From NCBI GenBank assembly GCA_913055745.1, contig CAJXJZ010000004.1:1-64000 (forward strand): a DNA stretch of 64,000 nt, read 5' to 3'. The notes beneath the pieces were generated by a model that was not told where the DNA came from, made no database searches, and saw only the letters and a list, made by a program, of their open reading frames with translations. Origin of the DNA: an uncultured bacterium. Its GTDB lineage: Bacteria > Hydrothermota > Hydrothermia > UBA1063 > CAJXJZ01. Below are positions 3,365 through 51,231 of the stretch, piece after piece (position 1 is the stretch's first letter; every line of letters starts with the position of its first letter). The position numbers were made by a program, and so were the translations under genes.

Positions 3365-3571
3365 ATGAAGAAGGGAGAAAAAATTGTTATAGCGGGCATA
3401 TTGGGATTTGCATCTGGTGTCATACTGGGTACTATATTTACCCCATGGAGCGGCGAGGAGGTACAGAAGAAAATTGGAATCAGGAAACGAACAGTGGAAG
3501 AAAAACTCAAAAAACTGGAAAACAAAGTAGAGAAACTGGAAGAAACGATAAAAAAGGGTGAAAAGTCTTGA
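3365..3571 (+). CDS. YtxH-domain-like small membrane protein
   Basis: KIVIAGILGFASGVILGTIFTPWSGEE followed by coiled coil; ORF track starts at 3335, but ATG at 3365 just after sucC gives the YtxH-like N-terminus. Confidence 0.7.
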   Translation: MKKGEKIVIAGILGFASGVILGTIFTPWSGEEVQKKIGIRKRTVEEKLKKLENKVEKLEETIKKGEKS

Positions 3572-4431
3572 TTCCTTTCTTTAAGAAAAAAAAGCAGTTT
3601 CCCTCTGGTAAAGACAAAAAAGAGGTAAAGGAAGAGTTATTTGTAAAGTGCGAGAAATGTGGGGCACTTTATTACAAGAAACAACTTGAACAGGAATTAT
3701 GGGTTTGTCCAGAATGTGGATATCACTTCAGGATTACTGCTAAAAAATATGTTGAATATATCCTTGATGATGGAAAGTTTGAAGAAAGGATAGGAGAGAA
3801 CCTGTATGCAAATGACCCACTAAACTTTCCTGGATACGCAAAAAAATTAGAGGGATACTATAATAAATTAAAACTCAATGATGCAGCATTATGTGGTACA
3901 GGATATATAAATGGTATAAAGGTCGTACTTTTTGTGACAGACTTCAAGTTTCTTGGCGGTAGTATGGGATCAGTTTACGGGGAGATATTCCTGCGTGGTA
4001 CAAGAAAGGCTATTTCAGAAAAGATACCATTTATCTCCCTCACGACTTCTGGAGGTGGAGCGCGGATGCATGAGGGTATATTCTCTCTTATGCAAATGGC
4101 TAAAACTACAGTAGGAGTGGTTGAATTAAATGAAGCAAACATCCCTTACATATCAGTTGTAGCACATCCTACAATGGGTGGTGTCATGGCGTCATTTGCT
4201 TCACTTGGAGATATTATACTCGCAGAAAAAGGAGCACTCTTAGGATTTGCGGGGCCAAGGGTCATTGAGCAAACAATAAGACAAAAACTGCCAGAAGGGT
4301 TTCAGACAGCAGAGTTTCTCCTTGAAAAAGGTTTTATAGATGAAGTAATCTCAAGAAAACAGTTGAAGGATAGGTTAACCTTTTATTTAAAGCACCTTGG
4401 AGGACAAAATGGCAGAAGTAAGACTAATTAA
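3568..4431 (+). CDS. accD: Acetyl-CoA carboxylase carboxyltransferase subunit beta
   Basis: N-terminal zinc finger CEKCGALYYKKQLEQELWVCPECGYHFRI; TSGGGARMHEG. Confidence 0.96.
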   Translation: MIPFFKKKKQFPSGKDKKEVKEELFVKCEKCGALYYKKQLEQELWVCPECGYHFRITAKKYVEYILDDGKFEERIGENLYANDPLNFPGYAKKLEGYYNKLKLNDAALCGTGYINGIKVVLFVTDFKFLGGSMGSVYGEIFLRGTRKAISEKIPFISLTTSGGGARMHEGIFSLMQMAKTTVGVVELNEANIPYISVVAHPTMGGVMASFASLGDIILAEKGALLGFAGPRVIEQTIRQKLPEGFQTAEFLLEKGFIDEVISRKQLKDRLTFYLKHLGGQNGRSKTN

Positions 4432-22028: not shown

Positions 22029-22703
22029 CTACATCATCTTTGTATCATTTATAAAAAGTTCAAATTTTGCGTTAAGGAACCTTGCAGATTTTGATGCAAT
22101 CAACATTCTCTGTAAAAATATTCTAAAATAATCCACCACTGGAGCAATTTTTGTATCCACCTCTATCTTGTATCTCACAATTTTTTTTGTTGCATCAACC
22201 TCAATAAAAGACTTCGTCGCTGAATAATTTACCCTATCGTGTATATCCTTCTGAAGATTGTCTAAATTGACGGTTCCCTTTCTCACCCTTGATCTATGAA
22301 CATCTGCTTTATCTGCCAAGATTAGCGCTGCCGAAAGTACGGACACAGGATAACCATCTTCCTCATGGTGATTGCCTATTGCCATCATAACATCTGCCAC
22401 TTCATCAAGGTCAAATCCCTCTTCTTCAAGTATATTGCCGGCCAAAACAGCCCCTACTTGTGCGTGATGCTCCCTATTTATTAAGTTTCCTATATCATGC
22501 AAAAATCCTGCTATCTTTCCAAGTTCAACGATGCGACTGTCATATCCAAGTTCACGGAGTATATATCCTGTATTTTTGGACACCCATGTGGCATGCCTTA
22601 TCCCATGCTCAGTATATCCAAGGCCTGCAAGTTGTTCATCCGCCTTTCTTATAAAGAGTTCTACCTTAGGGTTTTCCCTTAAGTCTTCCAACGTTTTTTT
22701 CAT
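22029..22703 (-). CDS. HD-domain phosphohydrolase
   Basis: HGIRHATWV, AGFLHDIGNL, GNHHEEDG, ADKADVHRSRV. Confidence 0.88.
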   Translation of the reverse strand: MKKTLEDLRENPKVELFIRKADEQLAGLGYTEHGIRHATWVSKNTGYILRELGYDSRIVELGKIAGFLHDIGNLINREHHAQVGAVLAGNILEEEGFDLDEVADVMMAIGNHHEEDGYPVSVLSAALILADKADVHRSRVRKGTVNLDNLQKDIHDRVNYSATKSFIEVDATKKIVRYKIEVDTKIAPVVDYFRIFLQRMLIASKSARFLNAKFELFINDTKMM

Positions 22704-22711
22704 ATTACCTC

Positions 22712-23440
22712 CTATACAAACAGTTTTCCCTTTTCTATCTGTGTACCTACAACAACATGCATGGCACCATTTTCAAGGGCCTTCTCTATATCACTTATTT
22801 TTTTAAATCCTCCACCTACAATGACAGGGATATTGACATATTCTGAAGTTAGTTTTATGGCCTCAAAAGGCACATGAAAATCTGCACCAGACCCTGCTTC
22901 AAGATAAATAAGATCAAAACCAAATAGCTCTCCCACCTTGGCGTGGGCAGCAACAAGATCGGGTTTATCCCTTGGAATAGGTTTTGTATTTGACATAAAT
23001 TCTACAGATGTAATTTTTCCACCATCAATCAATATATAACCCGTTGCTATGGCTTCAATGCCACTTTCTGTTATAAAAGGTACCATTTTTAGTTGCTCTT
23101 CTATTAAAAATTGTGGATTCCTTCCAGAGAGTAAAGACATATAAAGCATTGCGTCTGCATACCTTGAAAGTTGCGCATGATCAGATGGGAACATTACAAC
23201 AGGCAAGTCTGTATGCTCTTTTATTGCTTTAACATAATCATCAATACCAAAGGTCATCTGAAAACTCGTGCCTATAAAATAGCCTTTGATAAAATCATTT
23301 TTATTGAGTTTCTCCATCTTTTTTATTGCTTCCTCCTTAGGGGTCCTATCTGGGTCAAAAAGTACTATTACACCACTTTTACCTTTTCTAAATAAATTCT
23401 CGTAAACACTCTTTTGCTGCATAAAGTCCTTTCTTTCCAA
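22712..23440 (-). CDS. Geranylgeranylglyceryl phosphate synthase (GGGPS/PcrB family)
   Basis: VIVLFDPDRTP, LLSGRNPQFLI, YLEAGSGADFHV, PVIVGGGFKK; start may be the internal Met at 23422. Confidence 0.9.
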   Translation of the reverse strand: MERKDFMQQKSVYENLFRKGKSGVIVLFDPDRTPKEEAIKKMEKLNKNDFIKGYFIGTSFQMTFGIDDYVKAIKEHTDLPVVMFPSDHAQLSRYADAMLYMSLLSGRNPQFLIEEQLKMVPFITESGIEAIATGYILIDGGKITSVEFMSNTKPIPRDKPDLVAAHAKVGELFGFDLIYLEAGSGADFHVPFEAIKLTSEYVNIPVIVGGGFKKISDIEKALENGAMHVVVGTQIEKGKLFV

Positions 23441-24608
23441 ACTTAAATAAAAACGCAGGGTCTTTTCTTAATATTCTAAATAGCATACTCATTGGTTTAA
23501 GAGGAGGAGTTATCTCAATATGACCAATAGCATCTTTTAAAGAATACATAAAACTCTCAAGTTCCTTCTTTTCTAAAGCATTATAAAATATCTTGGCACA
23601 AAGTGTTATCATATAATCAGAAAAAATCCATTTCTTTAACTTTTTTTCATATAACCTAAGTGCTTTTCTTGAATAATCTCCCATCTTTTTAGCAAAACTC
23701 GCCACTTCACTTGCCGCGATACCAGATATATATGCATTGGCGATTCCCCCACCTGTAAGAGGGTCTGCAAGTCTTGCAGCATCTCCAAGTATTAAGACAT
23801 TATTGTCGTATATTTTCCTTTTATGAAACTTTGTAGGGACAACGCCATAAGTCTCACCTAATATTTTATAGGTACTGCAGTGTTTTTTCAAGAAGTTCTT
23901 TAAATAGGTGTCAAGTCCATCCCTGGTTCCAGGGATACCTACTCCAACATTGGCAAACCCACCACCTTTGGGGAAAATCCAGGCATACCCATTGGGTGCT
24001 ATAGCATCTCCTATACCAAAATATAGATAATTATCTTTGATTTCATCACAGTATGCATAAACCTGCACTGTGAAGTAGTCATCCTCTTTGTCATAAGGGG
24101 TAAAAAGACCCAAAGACTTTGAAACAGATGATGCAGGGCCATCTGCACCTATAAGAAGAGGCGCAGATAAAACAATATCTTCACCATGAGACCTTAAATA
24201 GACTTTAACCAAGCCTTTTTCCCTTTCTGCCTTTATAAATTTGGTATTTATCAGTATATCGCTACCTGCCTTTATGGCAAGTTCTGCAAGGTATCTATCA
24301 AATATCTTTCGCTCAAGGATTGCCCCTCCAGGCTCATTTAGAGTAATCTCTATTATCTTTTTACCATTATAGGTAAGTATTCCCCCATATACATACCTGG
24401 CAACAAAATTCCTTGAGTGGCCTTTATCTTTTATTAGTTTTAAAAACTCCGATGATACACCTTCTGCACATAAAATAGTATGACCTATCTCCCTTTGTTT
24501 TTCAACGAGTAAAACGCGAAGACCGCTGCGGGAAGCGTGAAAGGCAAAAGAACTTCCCGCAGGGCCTGCACCTATTACAATAGCATCATATTTATTCTTT
24601 AAACTCAT
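23388..24608 (-). CDS. Geranylgeranyl reductase-family FAD oxidoreductase
   Basis: AIVIGAGPAGSSFAFHASRSGLRVLLVEK, FPKGGGFANVGVG, LILGDAARLADPLTGGGI. Confidence 0.93.
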   Translation of the reverse strand: MSLKNKYDAIVIGAGPAGSSFAFHASRSGLRVLLVEKQREIGHTILCAEGVSSEFLKLIKDKGHSRNFVARYVYGGILTYNGKKIIEITLNEPGGAILERKIFDRYLAELAIKAGSDILINTKFIKAEREKGLVKVYLRSHGEDIVLSAPLLIGADGPASSVSKSLGLFTPYDKEDDYFTVQVYAYCDEIKDNYLYFGIGDAIAPNGYAWIFPKGGGFANVGVGIPGTRDGLDTYLKNFLKKHCSTYKILGETYGVVPTKFHKRKIYDNNVLILGDAARLADPLTGGGIANAYISGIAASEVASFAKKMGDYSRKALRLYEKKLKKWIFSDYMITLCAKIFYNALEKKELESFMYSLKDAIGHIEITPPLKPMSMLFRILRKDPAFLFKFGKKGLYAAKECLREFI

Positions 24609-25579
24609 CTATAAATGATTCTGTACATTGCCTGCTTACCTTCCAAACGCCCTTCTAAGATATACACCCCTCTGTGAGGTAGAGTTAACATATCTCTTAT
24701 ACCTTTTAAAATGCAACTACCATCAATACCATAAAGTCTTGCACCTTTTATGCCATTTAAAACGACACGAGGAGAGTGGGTGATAATTACCCTTTGTATG
24801 CTATTTGCAGGATAAAAACTTCTATGTTCTTTTATATCCTCTGCACTGAGCAATCTTATGGTATGGTAATGCCATCCAGTTTCTCCATAGCCCTGTGTGG
24901 TATCCACACTAACCGTACTGTCGTATATCATTCCCAATTGAGGCACAAATTCCTCATACTCAAAGCCCCATGTTATAAGAACTATACCACTGGATAAATT
25001 TATTTGTACACGTGACTTGCGACGGATCTCAAATGCATTGTATGTGTCCGCGGGTACAGTAAAACTTCCTTGAGATACTACATAGGCAGTGTCATGGGAT
25101 ATAATCATTGTATCATCAATATTATCCTGATCCATATCACCTATGGAATATGTGCCACCTACGCCCATATCCCATTCATCACCTACATTTAGCGGTGTTA
25201 TATACATTTTATAGGCTGTATCAACAATGTTCACACCCCCATAACTCTTATGCACTTTTAACCATACTTCATTCCCATTTTCATATAGTGTATCAATCGA
25301 AATTGAATCACTATCACCTTGCGTTTGCTGTATATAAGAGTACCTCTCATAAGCATCATGTCCATTGAGTGTAAAAAAGGATGATATGGCAACGCTATCG
25401 TATGTGATGGTATCAACTGTAACCTGCCATGATGGATAACTAAAGGTAGAATCCTTACTCATCCCTTCATATATCCACTTTGACATGGTAGTTAGCCCTA
25501 CATAATCTCCTGCCGCACCTGCAAAAAGCGGCGCTACTATTATACCAAGCAATACACTTATACGAACAAAACGTCTCAT
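24605..25579 (-). CDS. Secreted protein with short T9SS-like C-terminus
   Basis: Signal peptide; C-term KGARLYGIDGSCILKGIRDMLTLPHRGVYILEGRLEGKQAMYRIIYR. Confidence 0.7.
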   Translation of the reverse strand: MRRFVRISVLLGIIVAPLFAGAAGDYVGLTTMSKWIYEGMSKDSTFSYPSWQVTVDTITYDSVAISSFFTLNGHDAYERYSYIQQTQGDSDSISIDTLYENGNEVWLKVHKSYGGVNIVDTAYKMYITPLNVGDEWDMGVGGTYSIGDMDQDNIDDTMIISHDTAYVVSQGSFTVPADTYNAFEIRRKSRVQINLSSGIVLITWGFEYEEFVPQLGMIYDSTVSVDTTQGYGETGWHYHTIRLLSAEDIKEHRSFYPANSIQRVIITHSPRVVLNGIKGARLYGIDGSCILKGIRDMLTLPHRGVYILEGRLEGKQAMYRIIYR

Positions 25580-41169: not shown

Positions 41170-41640
41170 ATGAATCTTAAAAAGATAAGAGAACTTGTTA
41201 AAATTGGAAAAGACAATGGGGTGGATGAAATAGAATACAGAACCCTGTTTTCCCGCATAAGAATAGTGTTTAAACATGCCCCTCTGACCATTGACAGACA
41301 TAAATATATAGCAACTTCGCCTATATCAGAAGAGAATAGCACACCTGCGGCTAAACCACAGGAAAGTGATACAAAGACATCTGACACACAGAAAAAATAC
41401 CATGAAATACGTTCTCCCATCGTTGGAACATTTTATAGAGCGCCATCACCTGGTGCGCCTCCGTTTGTAAAAAAAGGAGATAGGGTAAAAAAAGGTCAAG
41501 TTCTCTGCATAGTAGAAGCGATGAAGGTTATGAACGAAATAGAGTCGGATACCGATGGCACAATAGTAGATATACTCGTTGAAAATGGGGAACCTGTGGA
41601 ATACAACCAGGTATTGTTCAAAATAGACACATCTTCATAA
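41170..41640 (+). CDS. accB: Biotin carboxyl carrier protein of acetyl-CoA carboxylase
   Basis: [36 protein letters not shown]. Confidence 0.96.
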
Positions 41641-42606: not shown

Positions 42607-43776
42607 ATGAAAAGGGTTAAAGTCAAGGGACCTATATCAAGGTATGCAAGGCATCCGTGGGTATTCTCAGGAAATATCTTTGATGCTGATGGAGATAGGG
42701 GTGATAATGTTGAGGTTTATACACGCAAGGGAGAGTTTCTTGGAAGTGCGCTTTACAACCCCTCATCTTCCATTACCCTCAGGTTCTATTCTCGTAAAAA
42801 AGAGCCACTCGGATACGATGAGATTAAAGATCGCATCTTTATAGCAAGGGAAAAACGATTGAAAATGTTTGGAGAGGAACAAGAGGCCTACAGAATGGTA
42901 TATGGAGAAAGCGATAACCTCCCGGGTCTTGTGATTGATAAATATAAATCTGGTTTTGTTGTACAGTTTTCTTCCTTTGGGATGTACAAGCGGAAAAAAC
43001 TTGTCCAAAATGCATTATTTGACCTATTTAATCCTGAATTTATCTATGAAAAGTCTAACACACATGCAGCAAGAGCAGAAGGTATACCCACCGAACAATC
43101 CCTGCTCTTAGGTGAAATACCAGAGGAACTTGTGGTTAAGATAAATGACCTCTTTTTTAAGGTTGATATTGAAAATGGGCAGAAAACAGGACTATACCTT
43201 GATCAGAAGAAAAACTGGAAAATACTGGAAAAATATGCGAATGAAAAGGATATATTAGAACTTTTCTCCTATCAAGGTGGCTTTACTATGCATCTTTTAA
43301 GGGGAAGGGCAAAGAGGGTGTATGTTGTAGATATAGGAGAATATGCCATAGATATTTTAAAAGAAAACCTAAAACTCAATGGATTTAAAGATAAACGCAT
43401 AGTGCCCTTCCATGAAGATGTCTTCAGATTCCTTGATGAGTTCTCCTCCTCTCAGATAAAGTTTGATTTAATAATCATAGACCCACCATCTTTTGCAAGG
43501 TCTTCAAAAACTAAAGAAAATGGGCTTAGAGCCTATTACAACCTTATAGATATGTCACTTAAATACCTAAGGCCAGGTGGGATGATGGCAATATTTTCTT
43601 GCTCAACCTACATAAAAAGAAACGACCTTTTAAATGTAATACAAACAGTGTTTAACGCAAATTTAAGGGTATTCAGGGTGATAGAAGAGTTTACGCAGGA
43701 TGATGATCACCCCTACCTTATTTCATTTCCTGAAAGTAGGTATTTAAATGGTTTTTTAATGGAGGAATGGCTATGA
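42607..43776 (+). CDS. RlmI-like class I SAM-dependent rRNA methyltransferase (PUA + MTase)
   Basis: RHPWVFSGNIF, GDNLPGLVIDKY, LELFSYQGGFTMHLL, IIIDPPSFARS. Confidence 0.94.
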   Translation: MKRVKVKGPISRYARHPWVFSGNIFDADGDRGDNVEVYTRKGEFLGSALYNPSSSITLRFYSRKKEPLGYDEIKDRIFIAREKRLKMFGEEQEAYRMVYGESDNLPGLVIDKYKSGFVVQFSSFGMYKRKKLVQNALFDLFNPEFIYEKSNTHAARAEGIPTEQSLLLGEIPEELVVKINDLFFKVDIENGQKTGLYLDQKKNWKILEKYANEKDILELFSYQGGFTMHLLRGRAKRVYVVDIGEYAIDILKENLKLNGFKDKRIVPFHEDVFRFLDEFSSSQIKFDLIIIDPPSFARSSKTKENGLRAYYNLIDMSLKYLRPGGMMAIFSCSTYIKRNDLLNVIQTVFNANLRVFRVIEEFTQDDDHPYLISFPESRYLNGFLMEEWL

Positions 43777-44690
43777 GAAAAATCATGCTTGTATTCCCAG
43801 GCCAAGGCTCTCAATATGTAGGTATGATGAAGGATATTCTAAGTGAGAGTTATGAAGCTCTCGAAATTGTAAAAGAGGCAGAAGAGATTACCGGAAAACC
43901 TTTAAGATACATTATGGAAAATGGACCAAAAGAAAAATTAAATGACACAAGATTCACTCAACTTGCCATTTTTATACACTCTTATGTGGTATTCAAACTG
44001 GTAAGCGAGCAATATCATATAAACTTCCACGCAGTAGCAGGTCATAGCCTTGGAGAACTTACTGCTCTATGTGCTGTGGATGTCTATGACTTTAAAACAG
44101 GTATTTTTATTGTCAACAAGAGGGCTGAACTTATGTCCATGGCCAAAAATGGAGGGATGACAGCAGTTATTGGACTTGAAAAGGAACAAATAAACGAGGT
44201 ACTTAAAGACTACATGGGGGAATTGGTCATTGCAAATTATAACGAACCAAAACAGATAGTTATTTCTGGAAGTTTGTGGGCACTTGAAAAGGCAGAGAAA
44301 AAACTTAAAGAAAAAGGCGCAAGAAAGGTTATAAGACTCAATGTCTCAGGTGCATTCCATTCTAAATTCATGTTTGATGCTCAAAGAGAATTTGCAGAGT
44401 TTTTGAAAAACTTTCATTTCAACGACCCGCATGTCCCTGTTATACCAAATATTGAGGCAAAAGGAGTATATTTTGGTGAGAGACTGAAAGAAGATCTTAT
44501 AAAACAACTAACAGGTCCTGTAAAATGGGTAGATACTATAAATTACGCAGCAAGCACCATGCATATAGATACATTTATAGAAATGGGGCCTAAAAGGGTT
44601 CTATCAGGGCTTATCAAGAGGATAAGAAGGGATGTGAATGTGCTCAATGTGGATACATGGGAAGACATTGAAAGCCTAAAACTTCCATGA
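43767..44690 (+). CDS. fabD: Malonyl-CoA-ACP transacylase
   Basis: MLVFPGQGSQYVGMM, AGHSLGELTALCA, SGAFHSKFM. Confidence 0.96.
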   Translation: MAMRKIMLVFPGQGSQYVGMMKDILSESYEALEIVKEAEEITGKPLRYIMENGPKEKLNDTRFTQLAIFIHSYVVFKLVSEQYHINFHAVAGHSLGELTALCAVDVYDFKTGIFIVNKRAELMSMAKNGGMTAVIGLEKEQINEVLKDYMGELVIANYNEPKQIVISGSLWALEKAEKKLKEKGARKVIRLNVSGAFHSKFMFDAQREFAEFLKNFHFNDPHVPVIPNIEAKGVYFGERLKEDLIKQLTGPVKWVDTINYAASTMHIDTFIEMGPKRVLSGLIKRIRRDVNVLNVDTWEDIESLKLP

Positions 44691-48056: not shown

Positions 48057-50503
48057 TGCTTTTTTATGCAATGTTATTTGCTATTACTATTGAAAACCCC
48101 AGAATAATTCATGACACATTAAGCGCGCATTCTAAAAAGAATGAACAAACAGAGAGTAATTTCACGCTCTTGGGACAAAAGACCTTTGCTGCAAGTGGCA
48201 CAGGAGAAAATGCCGATATATTCCAATCAACAAACATCACCATAAAAGGCAAAGCAAAGAATGGGTGGCAGGTAGATGGTCATCTTTTTGATAATGATAT
48301 AAAACCACAGAACGATATATACACAGTGTCCCTCTCTGATGTCAATACCGCATACCTTATAGTACACAGAAAAAAAGACTCTATAGTCTTAGGTAGGTTC
48401 AATTTCTTAGGCAAAGGCATTGATGGCGCACTTTTAAAATATAACTTTGGGCATTTTACCTTCAAGGGCGCAGGGGGCAAGACAAGAGGGCTTCCTGGCG
48501 TATTTGATACAACCTTAACACCCCCCTACAATCTTCCCATACCCATAACATTAAAAGATGTAGATTACTTTACCATTGTAGATGGCACCTTCAGGGTCTT
48601 TGCAAATGGCGTAGCATTAAAAAAAGAGGAATATTCAGTAGATTATGAAAGACGCATCCTTAAACTACATCTTAAGGATAACCCACCATATATCCATCTT
48701 CGGGCAGAGTTTGAATACCATTCAGTCATGGATAATCCCTTTATACATTCTACCATGTTCGCATATAAGAACAAAAATATACAAGGTGAGGTCTCATGGT
48801 ATTCAGAGGAACTTCCAACAAAACCCATGTATGATGAACAAGGTGGCATCTACCTTCAAAATGGCGGCGGAGATTACGAAAAAAAAGACAGTGTATTTTG
48901 CTATGTAGGCGATGGGAAAGGGCATTATAGGGTATTTTTCAGGCAGGATACCTTGGATGGAAGTTATATATATGACGAGCGTGGATTTTATGTGTTTGTA
49001 GGAAAGGGTAAGGGAAACTATTCACCAATAGTAATAAAAGACCCACCGATGCTAAAGGATGTAAAACACGCGAGCATCAAATTGGGAAGACGCATCTATA
49101 CAAAACTTTCCTATATGCAAACAGAGAATAAAACAACATTGGAAAATGGCACAAGCAAGGAACTAAGTGTGGGCTTATCTTTTGAAAGATTCAATATGGA
49201 AGCAGGTATGAGAGACATAAAAGGGAACCCTATCTACATAAATAGTTATTACGATCCAACAAAAAACCTTTATATGGACAAACCTGCTAATGAGAAATTT
49301 TTACATGTCGGAATAAGAAACACCAAGTGTTTTCTTGATTATGCCCTTTCATACACAACAGGGCCAAACTGGTATTTAACATCCAGATTATACAATCTTT
49401 ATCTAAAATCTCAAGGAGATACGGCATTAAATAATGCCATTTTAACATATAAAAACAAAAACAGCAGTGTTTCATTGTTCAAAACACAAAGTAGTGTCAT
49501 AGGGCTCAATGCAGTGCTTGATATGTTTAAAAATACCCATGTAAATGGCATGCTTTTTGAAGATTCTTTAAAACACAGACACCATATTTTAACCCTTATC
49601 CATGAAAACACAACAAAAGATGGAAAGATAACATTGAGATTTTCAAACCCTGACCAATACCTTCTCTTTGACATATCCTCCTCTCTGTTTTTAAATAGAT
49701 CCAGCCTTACATTATCCATGAAGAGGACATTGGATTTTGAAACAGTATTTATCACGCGATACATAAAAACAGATTATGGCAGTTTTGAATACGATAGCAC
49801 TTTATCCAAAATGCTCCCTTCGGCGTTTGGAAACTATACAAGAATAATAACAAAAAATCAGGGTGATGATATAGATTATGTAAATACTTACTCAGCAAGA
49901 GGTTACATACATAGAAAAACATGGAATATGGGTATCTATCTCTCACACGAAATACAGGGAGAAAATATAAAAAACAATATAAACCTCAACATAACCCATA
50001 ATATGTTAAACAAAACCCTTCTTTCTGTAAATTATGAAACATTTAATTACAATATACAGGACAAAAGTCAAACAAATGGCATACAAGAGGCATTAAAGAT
50101 GTCTTTATTTAGAGAGAGGGCTATAAGCCCCTCTGTATTTTACGATTTCTGGAAAGACCCTTTAAGTGGTATAGAAAAACAGAGAACAGGTATAGGCATA
50201 AATATAAAAAATAAAAAACTCAGGTTTCAAAGTGAACTATCTAAGGAGAAGAACAGCCTGATAAAAGGAAGATACTTTACATTAAAGGGCAATATGACCT
50301 TTGATATATTAAAAACCGAGATATCCCTCCTCTTTGGATATACATCGGCAGAGACCCAATACATAGGACTTGAAAAATATCTTGGTGTATCCCTAAAAAG
50401 AATATTCCCATTTGGCGAAATAAAGAACCTGTTCAGTGCTGACGCATATATCTCTTCCCAAAAAGAGGTGAGATGGAGGGCAACAAGTACCCTTTTGTTC
50501 TAA
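48053..50503 (+). CDS. Large predicted outer-membrane protein, unknown family
   Basis: Signal-like N-terminus; 816 aa, beta-rich, C-terminal aromatic residue (STLLF). Confidence 0.65.
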   Translation: MMLFYAMLFAITIENPRIIHDTLSAHSKKNEQTESNFTLLGQKTFAASGTGENADIFQSTNITIKGKAKNGWQVDGHLFDNDIKPQNDIYTVSLSDVNTAYLIVHRKKDSIVLGRFNFLGKGIDGALLKYNFGHFTFKGAGGKTRGLPGVFDTTLTPPYNLPIPITLKDVDYFTIVDGTFRVFANGVALKKEEYSVDYERRILKLHLKDNPPYIHLRAEFEYHSVMDNPFIHSTMFAYKNKNIQGEVSWYSEELPTKPMYDEQGGIYLQNGGGDYEKKDSVFCYVGDGKGHYRVFFRQDTLDGSYIYDERGFYVFVGKGKGNYSPIVIKDPPMLKDVKHASIKLGRRIYTKLSYMQTENKTTLENGTSKELSVGLSFERFNMEAGMRDIKGNPIYINSYYDPTKNLYMDKPANEKFLHVGIRNTKCFLDYALSYTTGPNWYLTSRLYNLYLKSQGDTALNNAILTYKNKNSSVSLFKTQSSVIGLNAVLDMFKNTHVNGMLFEDSLKHRHHILTLIHENTTKDGKITLRFSNPDQYLLFDISSSLFLNRSSLTLSMKRTLDFETVFITRYIKTDYGSFEYDSTLSKMLPSAFGNYTRIITKNQGDDIDYVNTYSARGYIHRKTWNMGIYLSHEIQGENIKNNINLNITHNMLNKTLLSVNYETFNYNIQDKSQTNGIQEALKMSLFRERAISPSVFYDFWKDPLSGIEKQRTGIGINIKNKKLRFQSELSKEKNSLIKGRYFTLKGNMTFDILKTEISLLFGYTSAETQYIGLEKYLGVSLKRIFPFGEIKNLFSADAYISSQKEVRWRATSTLLF

Positions 50504-51231
50504 GTCATACCTCCATCTATCACAATTACCTGACCTGTTATATACGATGCCTTATCTGAAACAAGAAAGGATACAAGATTTGCAACATCCTCTGGCCTAC
50601 CAAACCGTTTAAGTGGAATCCTGGCAAGATAGTCGTTTTTTATCTTATCTGGCAATTTATTGGTCATATCCGTTTCAATAAAACCCGGTGCAATAGCAAG
50701 AACCCTTATGCCTCTTGCGCCTACTTCCTTTGCAAGGGATTTCGTAAACCCAATTATGCCCGCCTTTGATGCCGCATAGTTTGTCTGACCAGCATTTCCT
50801 GTTATACCAACAACCGATGACATATTAATAATAACACCCTTTCTCTTTTTAAGCATAAAGGGAAGCACCAATGATGTCATCTTAAAGACGCCCAATAGGT
50901 TTACCTCAATAACCTTCCTATAATCCTCCTCTTTCATTCTCATAAACAGGGTGTCCTTTGTTATGCCAGCATTATTCACAAGAACAGATACCTCTTCTAT
51001 GTTTTCCTTTAAAAACTCCTTAAAGGATGCAACATCCTCCTCTTTTGCCACATCCATGGGAAAATACAGTGCCTTCTTGCCGGTTTGCTCTTCAATCTCT
51101 TCCTTAGATGTTTTCAACATCTCCTCATTCCTTGCCAAAAGCAACACATTATAACCATCCTTTGCAAGGTAAAGTGCTATCTTTTTCCCAATACCCCTTG
51201 ATGCACCTGTTATAATAGCAACATTTTCCAT
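50500..51231 (-). CDS. fabG: 3-oxoacyl-ACP reductase
   Basis: TGASRGIGKKIAL, VNNAGITKDTLFMRM, YAASKAGIIGFTKSLAKE. Confidence 0.96.
   Translation of the reverse strand: MENVAIITGASRGIGKKIALYLAKDGYNVLLLARNEEMLKTSKEEIEEQTGKKALYFPMDVAKEEDVASFKEFLKENIEEVSVLVNNAGITKDTLFMRMKEEDYRKVIEVNLLGVFKMTSLVLPFMLKKRKGVIINMSSVVGITGNAGQTNYAASKAGIIGFTKSLAKEVGARGIRVLAIAPGFIETDMTNKLPDKIKNDYLARIPLKRFGRPEDVANLVSFLVSDKASYITGQVIVIDGGMT

Follow-up and report, generated by a model that had tools for sequence, protein, structure and literature searches.

A bacterium of the phylum WOR-3, now Caldifarciminota in NCBI taxonomy, carries a GGGP synthase (GGGPS) gene that overlaps a gene for an archaeal-type geranylgeranyl reductase (GGR). 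We consider it likely, at about two chances in three, that the pair belongs to an archaeal-type ether-lipid pathway encoded across the genome. The lipid divide leaves open whether any bacterium alive today has a membrane of mixed archaeal and bacterial type; among published cases, the strongest candidates are the Black Sea Cloacimonetes, which seemed to have no source of sn-glycerol-1-phosphate (G1P). In genomes of this WOR-3 genus, a predicted G1P-making enzyme is present, along with a predicted saturating reductase in the GGGPS operon. WOR-3 also has a cultured isolate, sy37 (PMC12285271), so that a mixed membrane becomes directly testable if this isolate or a closer strain carries the genes.

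The two genes lie in the window, that is, the whole 64 kb stretch of DNA that was analysed (positions 1 to 64000, contig C4). Its genome (G000; 1.79 Mb in 63 contigs, 95.4% complete, 0.8% contamination) was searched family by family. The pair and its neighbours are as follows.

24605..25579, minus strand: predicted secreted protein of 324 aa, no family assigned; first gene of a tight run, overlapping the GGR gene by 4 bp
23388..24608, minus strand: predicted archaeal-type geranylgeranyl reductase (FAD); PF22578, TIGR02032; nearest solved chain 3oz2
22712..23440, minus strand: predicted GGGP synthase of group II (bacterial IIb type); PF01884, NF003198, TIGR01769; fold match 4jej
22029..22703, minus strand: HD-domain protein, conserved in the operon; PF01966
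20714..22018, minus strand: transcription termination factor Rho, an operon neighbour outside the pathway; PF00006, PF07497, PF07498

The tight run is ordered secreted protein, GGR, GGGPS, HD protein, rho, M23 peptidase and rsmA, and its genes overlap or are separated by 13 bp at most. GGR and GGGPS overlap by 53 bp, or by 35 bp if GGGPS starts at an ATG; gaps of 8, 10 and 13 bp then precede the HD, rho and M23 genes, and rsmA follows with an overlap of 4 bp. The original prediction had described a GGGPS and GGR pair in one operon with rho, an HD protein, an M23 peptidase and rsmA, and both the pair, as two intact overlapping reading frames with strong Pfam and NCBIfam matches, and the operon are borne out. 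The secreted-protein gene has no match in Pfam or NCBIfam, and ARAGORN finds no tRNA genes across the window. The HD protein may have a role with lipid phosphates or nucleotides.

The GGGPS reading frame encodes 242 aa from the listed TTG. The true start is probably the ATG at 23422, which gives 236 aa, because AAAGGA lies just upstream of it. The protein matches PF01884 (9e-35) and three GGGPS models of NCBIfam, namely NF003198 (6e-70), TIGR01769 (3.5e-44) and TIGR01768, the last being the only one passed above its cut-off. For GGR, an intact frame of 406 aa, the matches are to PF22578 (4e-17) and, above cut-off, to TIGR02032 (4e-64). As family assignments, the matches of both predicted enzymes are far beyond chance.

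The group to which the GGGPS belongs was assigned from profiles and fold, the GGGPS tree having been built without group I and PcrB rows. A profile built from ten relatives and scored against solved GGGPS enzymes gave 283 bits for FjGGGPS, 213 for MtGGGPS, 191 for TaGGGPS and 179 for TvGGGPS, all of group II, whereas the group I enzyme AfGGGPS received only 40. An AlphaFold model (mean pLDDT 88.6) was used for a fold search, in which the top match was 4jej, the GGGPS of Flavobacterium johnsoniae (44% identity, E 1.7e-24), and ranks 1 to 27 were group II throughout. The catalytic residues are kept as Y135, Y179 and E181 (Y134, Y178 and E180 in MtGGGPS; PMC9385802), as is the group II threonine (T233). 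At the proposed group II limiter position, assigned by reading the alignment with the enzymes of PMC9385802, the window GGGPS has Leu91, compared with V86 in the Mt and I90 in the Fj enzyme. By profile, family models and modelled fold, the enzyme is thus assigned to group II and not to group I; transfer of a C20 chain to G1P is its predicted activity. A family search finds one GGGPS gene in the genome.

The original prediction had offered a PcrB-type enzyme as the alternative and had proposed that the grouping and the chain-length residues of the GGGPS be checked. Such an enzyme would make a mono-ether heptaprenylglyceryl phosphate, then dephosphorylated and acetylated as in Bacillales, and no membrane diether would result. 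PcrB is a G1P-binding member of the same superfamily, and the sequence alone is compatible with a long-chain preference. However, the PcrB structures rank below all group II entries and MoeO5 in the fold search, at 15–21% identity and E 8e-12 or worse, compared with 44% for FjGGGPS, and the NCBIfam matches, listed up to an E-value of 10, include no PcrB-specific model. A single trans-prenyl synthase turned up in the genome; it is of short-chain type, no long-chain synthase is among the matches, and a DGGGPS candidate is present and co-occurs with GGGPS. We rejected the heptaprenyl identity, which profile, family models and fold together make very improbable.

The reductase is of archaeal type by sequence. 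Archaeal GGRs share an active-site Cys, a YxWxFP-x7-8-GxG motif and a GGG motif, and the last is replaced by REG or GEG in a bacterial GGR and in photosynthetic GGRs (PMC6309074). The window GGR has all three archaeal motifs: C47, YAWIFP-x8-GVG at 208 (YAWIFPKGGGFANVGVG), and GGG within DPLTGGG at 282. Its nearest solved chain, 3oz2 (181 bits), is a digeranylgeranylglycerophospholipid reductase, and DGGGP or a related diether is its predicted substrate.

DGGGPS, CarS and G1P dehydrogenase (G1PDH) are all absent from the 64 kb window, as originally noted. The proposed genome search for them recovered candidates for a UbiA-type DGGGPS and for G1PDH, but not CarS, for which the genome has no PF01864 match. 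CarS was found above cut-off in one relative, which itself lacks GGGPS. The genome has three UbiA genes. The one on contig C27 (L016:8696-9526) scores 111 bits against MjDGGGPS and at most 31 against other solved UbiA enzymes, carries the Asp-rich motifs NDIVDVEID and DWADIEGD, and is matched by the NCBIfam DGGGPS models below their cut-offs; in sequence it resembles DGGGPS more than it does other UbiA enzymes. It is not co-located with GGGPS. The two other UbiA genes were rejected as DGGGPS on score. A gene on contig C3 (L018:7007-9163) encodes a 718-aa membrane protein with an internal UbiA prenyltransferase domain, and related fused reading frames of about 670–720 aa also occur in relatives.

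The G1PDH candidate lies on contig C21 (L019:525-1574). It scores 273 bits against NF002022, below the cut-off of 413, and 76 against glycerol dehydrogenase. Among solved chains, its best is 3ce9 (188 bits), labelled by the depositors as a glycerol dehydrogenase; M. jannaschii G1PDH scores 162 bits, and most glycerol dehydrogenases reach 65 at most. The metal-site His and Asp motifs are present (GCGD, HLISHALD, HGIQVG). By these comparisons, the enzyme resembles G1PDH more than it does glycerol dehydrogenase. A nucleotidyltransferase gene (L019:1556-2266), distantly related to inositol-1-phosphate cytidylyltransferase, overlaps it, and the encoded enzyme might make a CDP-activated glycerol compound.

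From gene presence, family assignment, active-site residues, operon structure and co-occurrence, we infer activities, an order of steps, a chain length, a stereochemistry and a membrane role as follows. G1PDH would convert dihydroxyacetone phosphate to G1P, to which the window GGGPS would join a prenyl chain, most likely C20. The UbiA-family DGGGPS would add a second chain, CdsA, which is encoded on contig C36, would substitute for CarS, and bacterial head-group enzymes would complete the lipid. The GGR encoded beside GGGPS would saturate the chains. Against this reading stand the missing CarS and several NCBIfam scores below curated equivalog cut-offs, as well as a C20 donor that is not assured and a related family, f2, without G1PDH.

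The doubt over the donor comes from chain supply. The MEP route is represented by ispG (contig C17, L017), recognised by eye, and one trans-prenyl synthase (PF00348) was found in the genome. Its nearest solved chains are a GGPP synthase (248 bits) and an FPP synthase (239 bits). It passes the FPP synthase model NF045485, and FTLIH precedes DDLPALD, which places Phe at position −5 of the first Asp motif. With an aromatic residue at −5 and a pass of the FPP model in the sole synthase, a C20 donor is therefore not assured. The same pathway enzymes could instead use a C15 (farnesyl) or mixed donor and yield short or mixed-chain isoprenoid ethers: the aromatic residue is as in farnesyl synthases, and small residues at this position are tied to type II GGPP synthases (PMC9385802). 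We regard this as unlikely, since the best-matching solved chain is that of a GGPP synthase, GGPP is the substrate of the GGGPS and DGGGPS groups characterised to date, and a second synthase may lie in the roughly 5% of the genome that the assembly lacks.

The arrangement of the genes is shared with relatives. Across 30 GGGPS loci of relatives, a high-scoring GGR adjoins GGGPS in 14 (families f1, f2, f7 and f11), and the overlap of the two genes is kept in the genus and in f2, f7 and f11. The HD gene is retained between GGGPS and rho in f1, f2, f3, f7 and f11. Linkage of rho to GGGPS holds in most relatives, the exceptions being family f9 and the more distant genome G040. GGR, GGGPS, HD and rho thus form a conserved operon in the class.

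Some loci depart from this pattern. In family f3, the GGGPS copies L052 and L053 (genomes G014 and G039) have 31–33% identity, a very long branch, no SGRN motif and no good DGGGPS partner, and are still beside HD and rho; their function has perhaps changed. In family f6 (L037, L043, L045), the flavoprotein beside GGGPS is distantly GGR-like and has neither YxWxFP nor GGG, which may mean that this family has exchanged its partner reductase. A GGGPS from a sequence titled Thermotogota bacterium (L067, JAADDJ010000039.1) is identical to that of the WOR-3 relative G025, and the title is probably a misassignment.

The pathway genes also occur together across genomes. In 29 genomes, each at least 90% complete, GGGPS and DGGGPS are both present in 20 and both absent in 7, with GGGPS alone in 2 and DGGGPS alone in none (agreement in 27 of 29; p 2e-5, ignoring shared descent). 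G1PDH is found in 15 of the 22 genomes with GGGPS and in none of the 7 without (p 0.002, again ignoring shared descent). In family f2, of the same order, GGGPS, DGGGPS and GGR are retained and G1PDH is absent, as in the published Cloacimonetes.

Two further explanations were weighed. In one, the genes have no membrane role: GGR would act on another isoprenoid and DGGGPS on another acceptor, and G1PDH with the nucleotidyltransferase would make a CDP-glycerol-like precursor of a glycoconjugate. The UbiA and GGR families span a wide range of functions, and the nucleotidyltransferase overlaps or abuts G1PDH in G000, in G001 and in families f8 and f11. It is, however, away from G1PDH in the congeners G002 and G003 and in families f6, f7 and f9; G1PDH is found solely in GGGPS genomes, and GGR sits within the GGGPS operon, all of which makes such a role quite unlikely. 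In the other, the enzymes would run in reverse and degrade archaeal lipids from the surroundings, a direction suggested by Coleman et al. 2019 (PMC6431249) for lineages without G1PDH. Here G1PDH is present, synthesis is the better fit for an operon that also encodes a reductase, and in E. coli the enzymes of Cloacimonetes work in the forward direction (PMC7852524); we give reversal hardly any weight.

The genes appear to belong to the host. Archaeal contamination was rejected as GC matches, the neighbours are bacterial, and the operon is conserved in congeners and across families; the other pathway genes lie on bacterial-looking contigs. The tree, whose deep forks are poorly resolved and whose archaeal row (Mt) sits on a long branch, groups the window GGGPS with its own genus at 100/100 among bacterial sequences, and recent transfer of the gene is not supported. 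Contamination or recent import is unlikely because GGGPS, DGGGPS and G1PDH co-occur in the class and the operon is conserved.

The ether lipid would share the membrane with ordinary fatty-acid phospholipids. PlsY and fatty-acid genes are present in the genome, with fabH recognised by eye on L020, and the window itself holds four genes of bacterial fatty-acid synthesis, each above the cut-off of its model.

3568..4431, plus strand: accD (TIGR00515)
41170..41640, plus strand: accB, biotin carboxyl carrier (TIGR00531)
43767..44690, plus strand: fabD (TIGR00128)
50500..51231, minus strand: fabG (TIGR01830)

We tentatively propose, at somewhat less than even odds, that the lineage builds heterochiral mixed membranes, in which saturated archaeol-type G1P lipids, made with its own lineage-inherited G1PDH, stand beside G3P fatty-acid lipids. 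PlsY and PlsC accept G1P and G3P alike (PMC13400652), and therefore fatty-acyl lipids built on G1P might also arise in a bacterium that has G1PDH.

Among solved enzymes, the F. johnsoniae GGGPS of group IIb (4jej; Peterhoff et al. 2014, cited through PMC9385802) is closest by both sequence and fold. It shares the catalytic residues and about 44% identity in the structural alignment, and differs at the proposed limiter, where the window enzyme has Leu for Ile. PcrB of Bacillus subtilis, a group Ib heptaprenylglyceryl phosphate synthase, has the G1P-binding TIM barrel of the same superfamily and differs in group and in partner enzymes, with about 20% identity and a weak fold score. The archaeal reductase 3oz2 and the window GGR share the Cys, YxWxFP-x8-GxG and GGG motifs; unlike 3oz2, the window GGR, whose substrate is a predicted one, has a bacterial host and is encoded in an operon with GGGPS.

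The nearest published system is that of the Cloacimonetes (Villanueva et al. 2020, PMC7852524), which have the GGGPS and DGGGPS pathway and GGR without CarS or G1PDH. Their homologues made GGGP in vitro and unsaturated PG-archaeol in E. coli, and bacterial CdsA was reported to be able to replace CarS (PMC7852524). The WOR-3 genome resembles them in having GGGPS, DGGGPS and GGR, without CarS, beside a bacterial fatty-acid lipid pathway. It differs in its phylum, in the presence of G1PDH, in one trans-prenyl synthase found rather than two, and in the linkage of GGGPS, which is to GGR, HD and rho here and to DGGGPS in Cloacimonetes.

A study of 181 WOR-3 genomes (PMC12542636) and the paper on the first WOR-3 isolate, sy37, contain no discussion or analysis of ether lipids in their text, and we found no report in the open-licence literature of a WOR-3 bacterium with its own G1PDH and a GGR–GGGPS operon. 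Coleman et al. included WOR-3 in their survey; in the available part of their text, Firmicutes, Actinobacteria and Fibrobacteres are the only groups named whose genomes combine G1PDH, GGGPS and DGGGPS. The Fibrobacteres, also of the FCB group, have this set of three archaeal genes in common with the WOR-3 genome; they are a different phylum, and the same part of that text describes no GGR operon for them. The potential for archaeal lipids in the FCB group was already published, and the idea of archaeal-type ether lipids in an FCB-like bacterium, raised by the original prediction, gains support here at the level of genes, in a set that G1PDH and the GGR operon make more complete.
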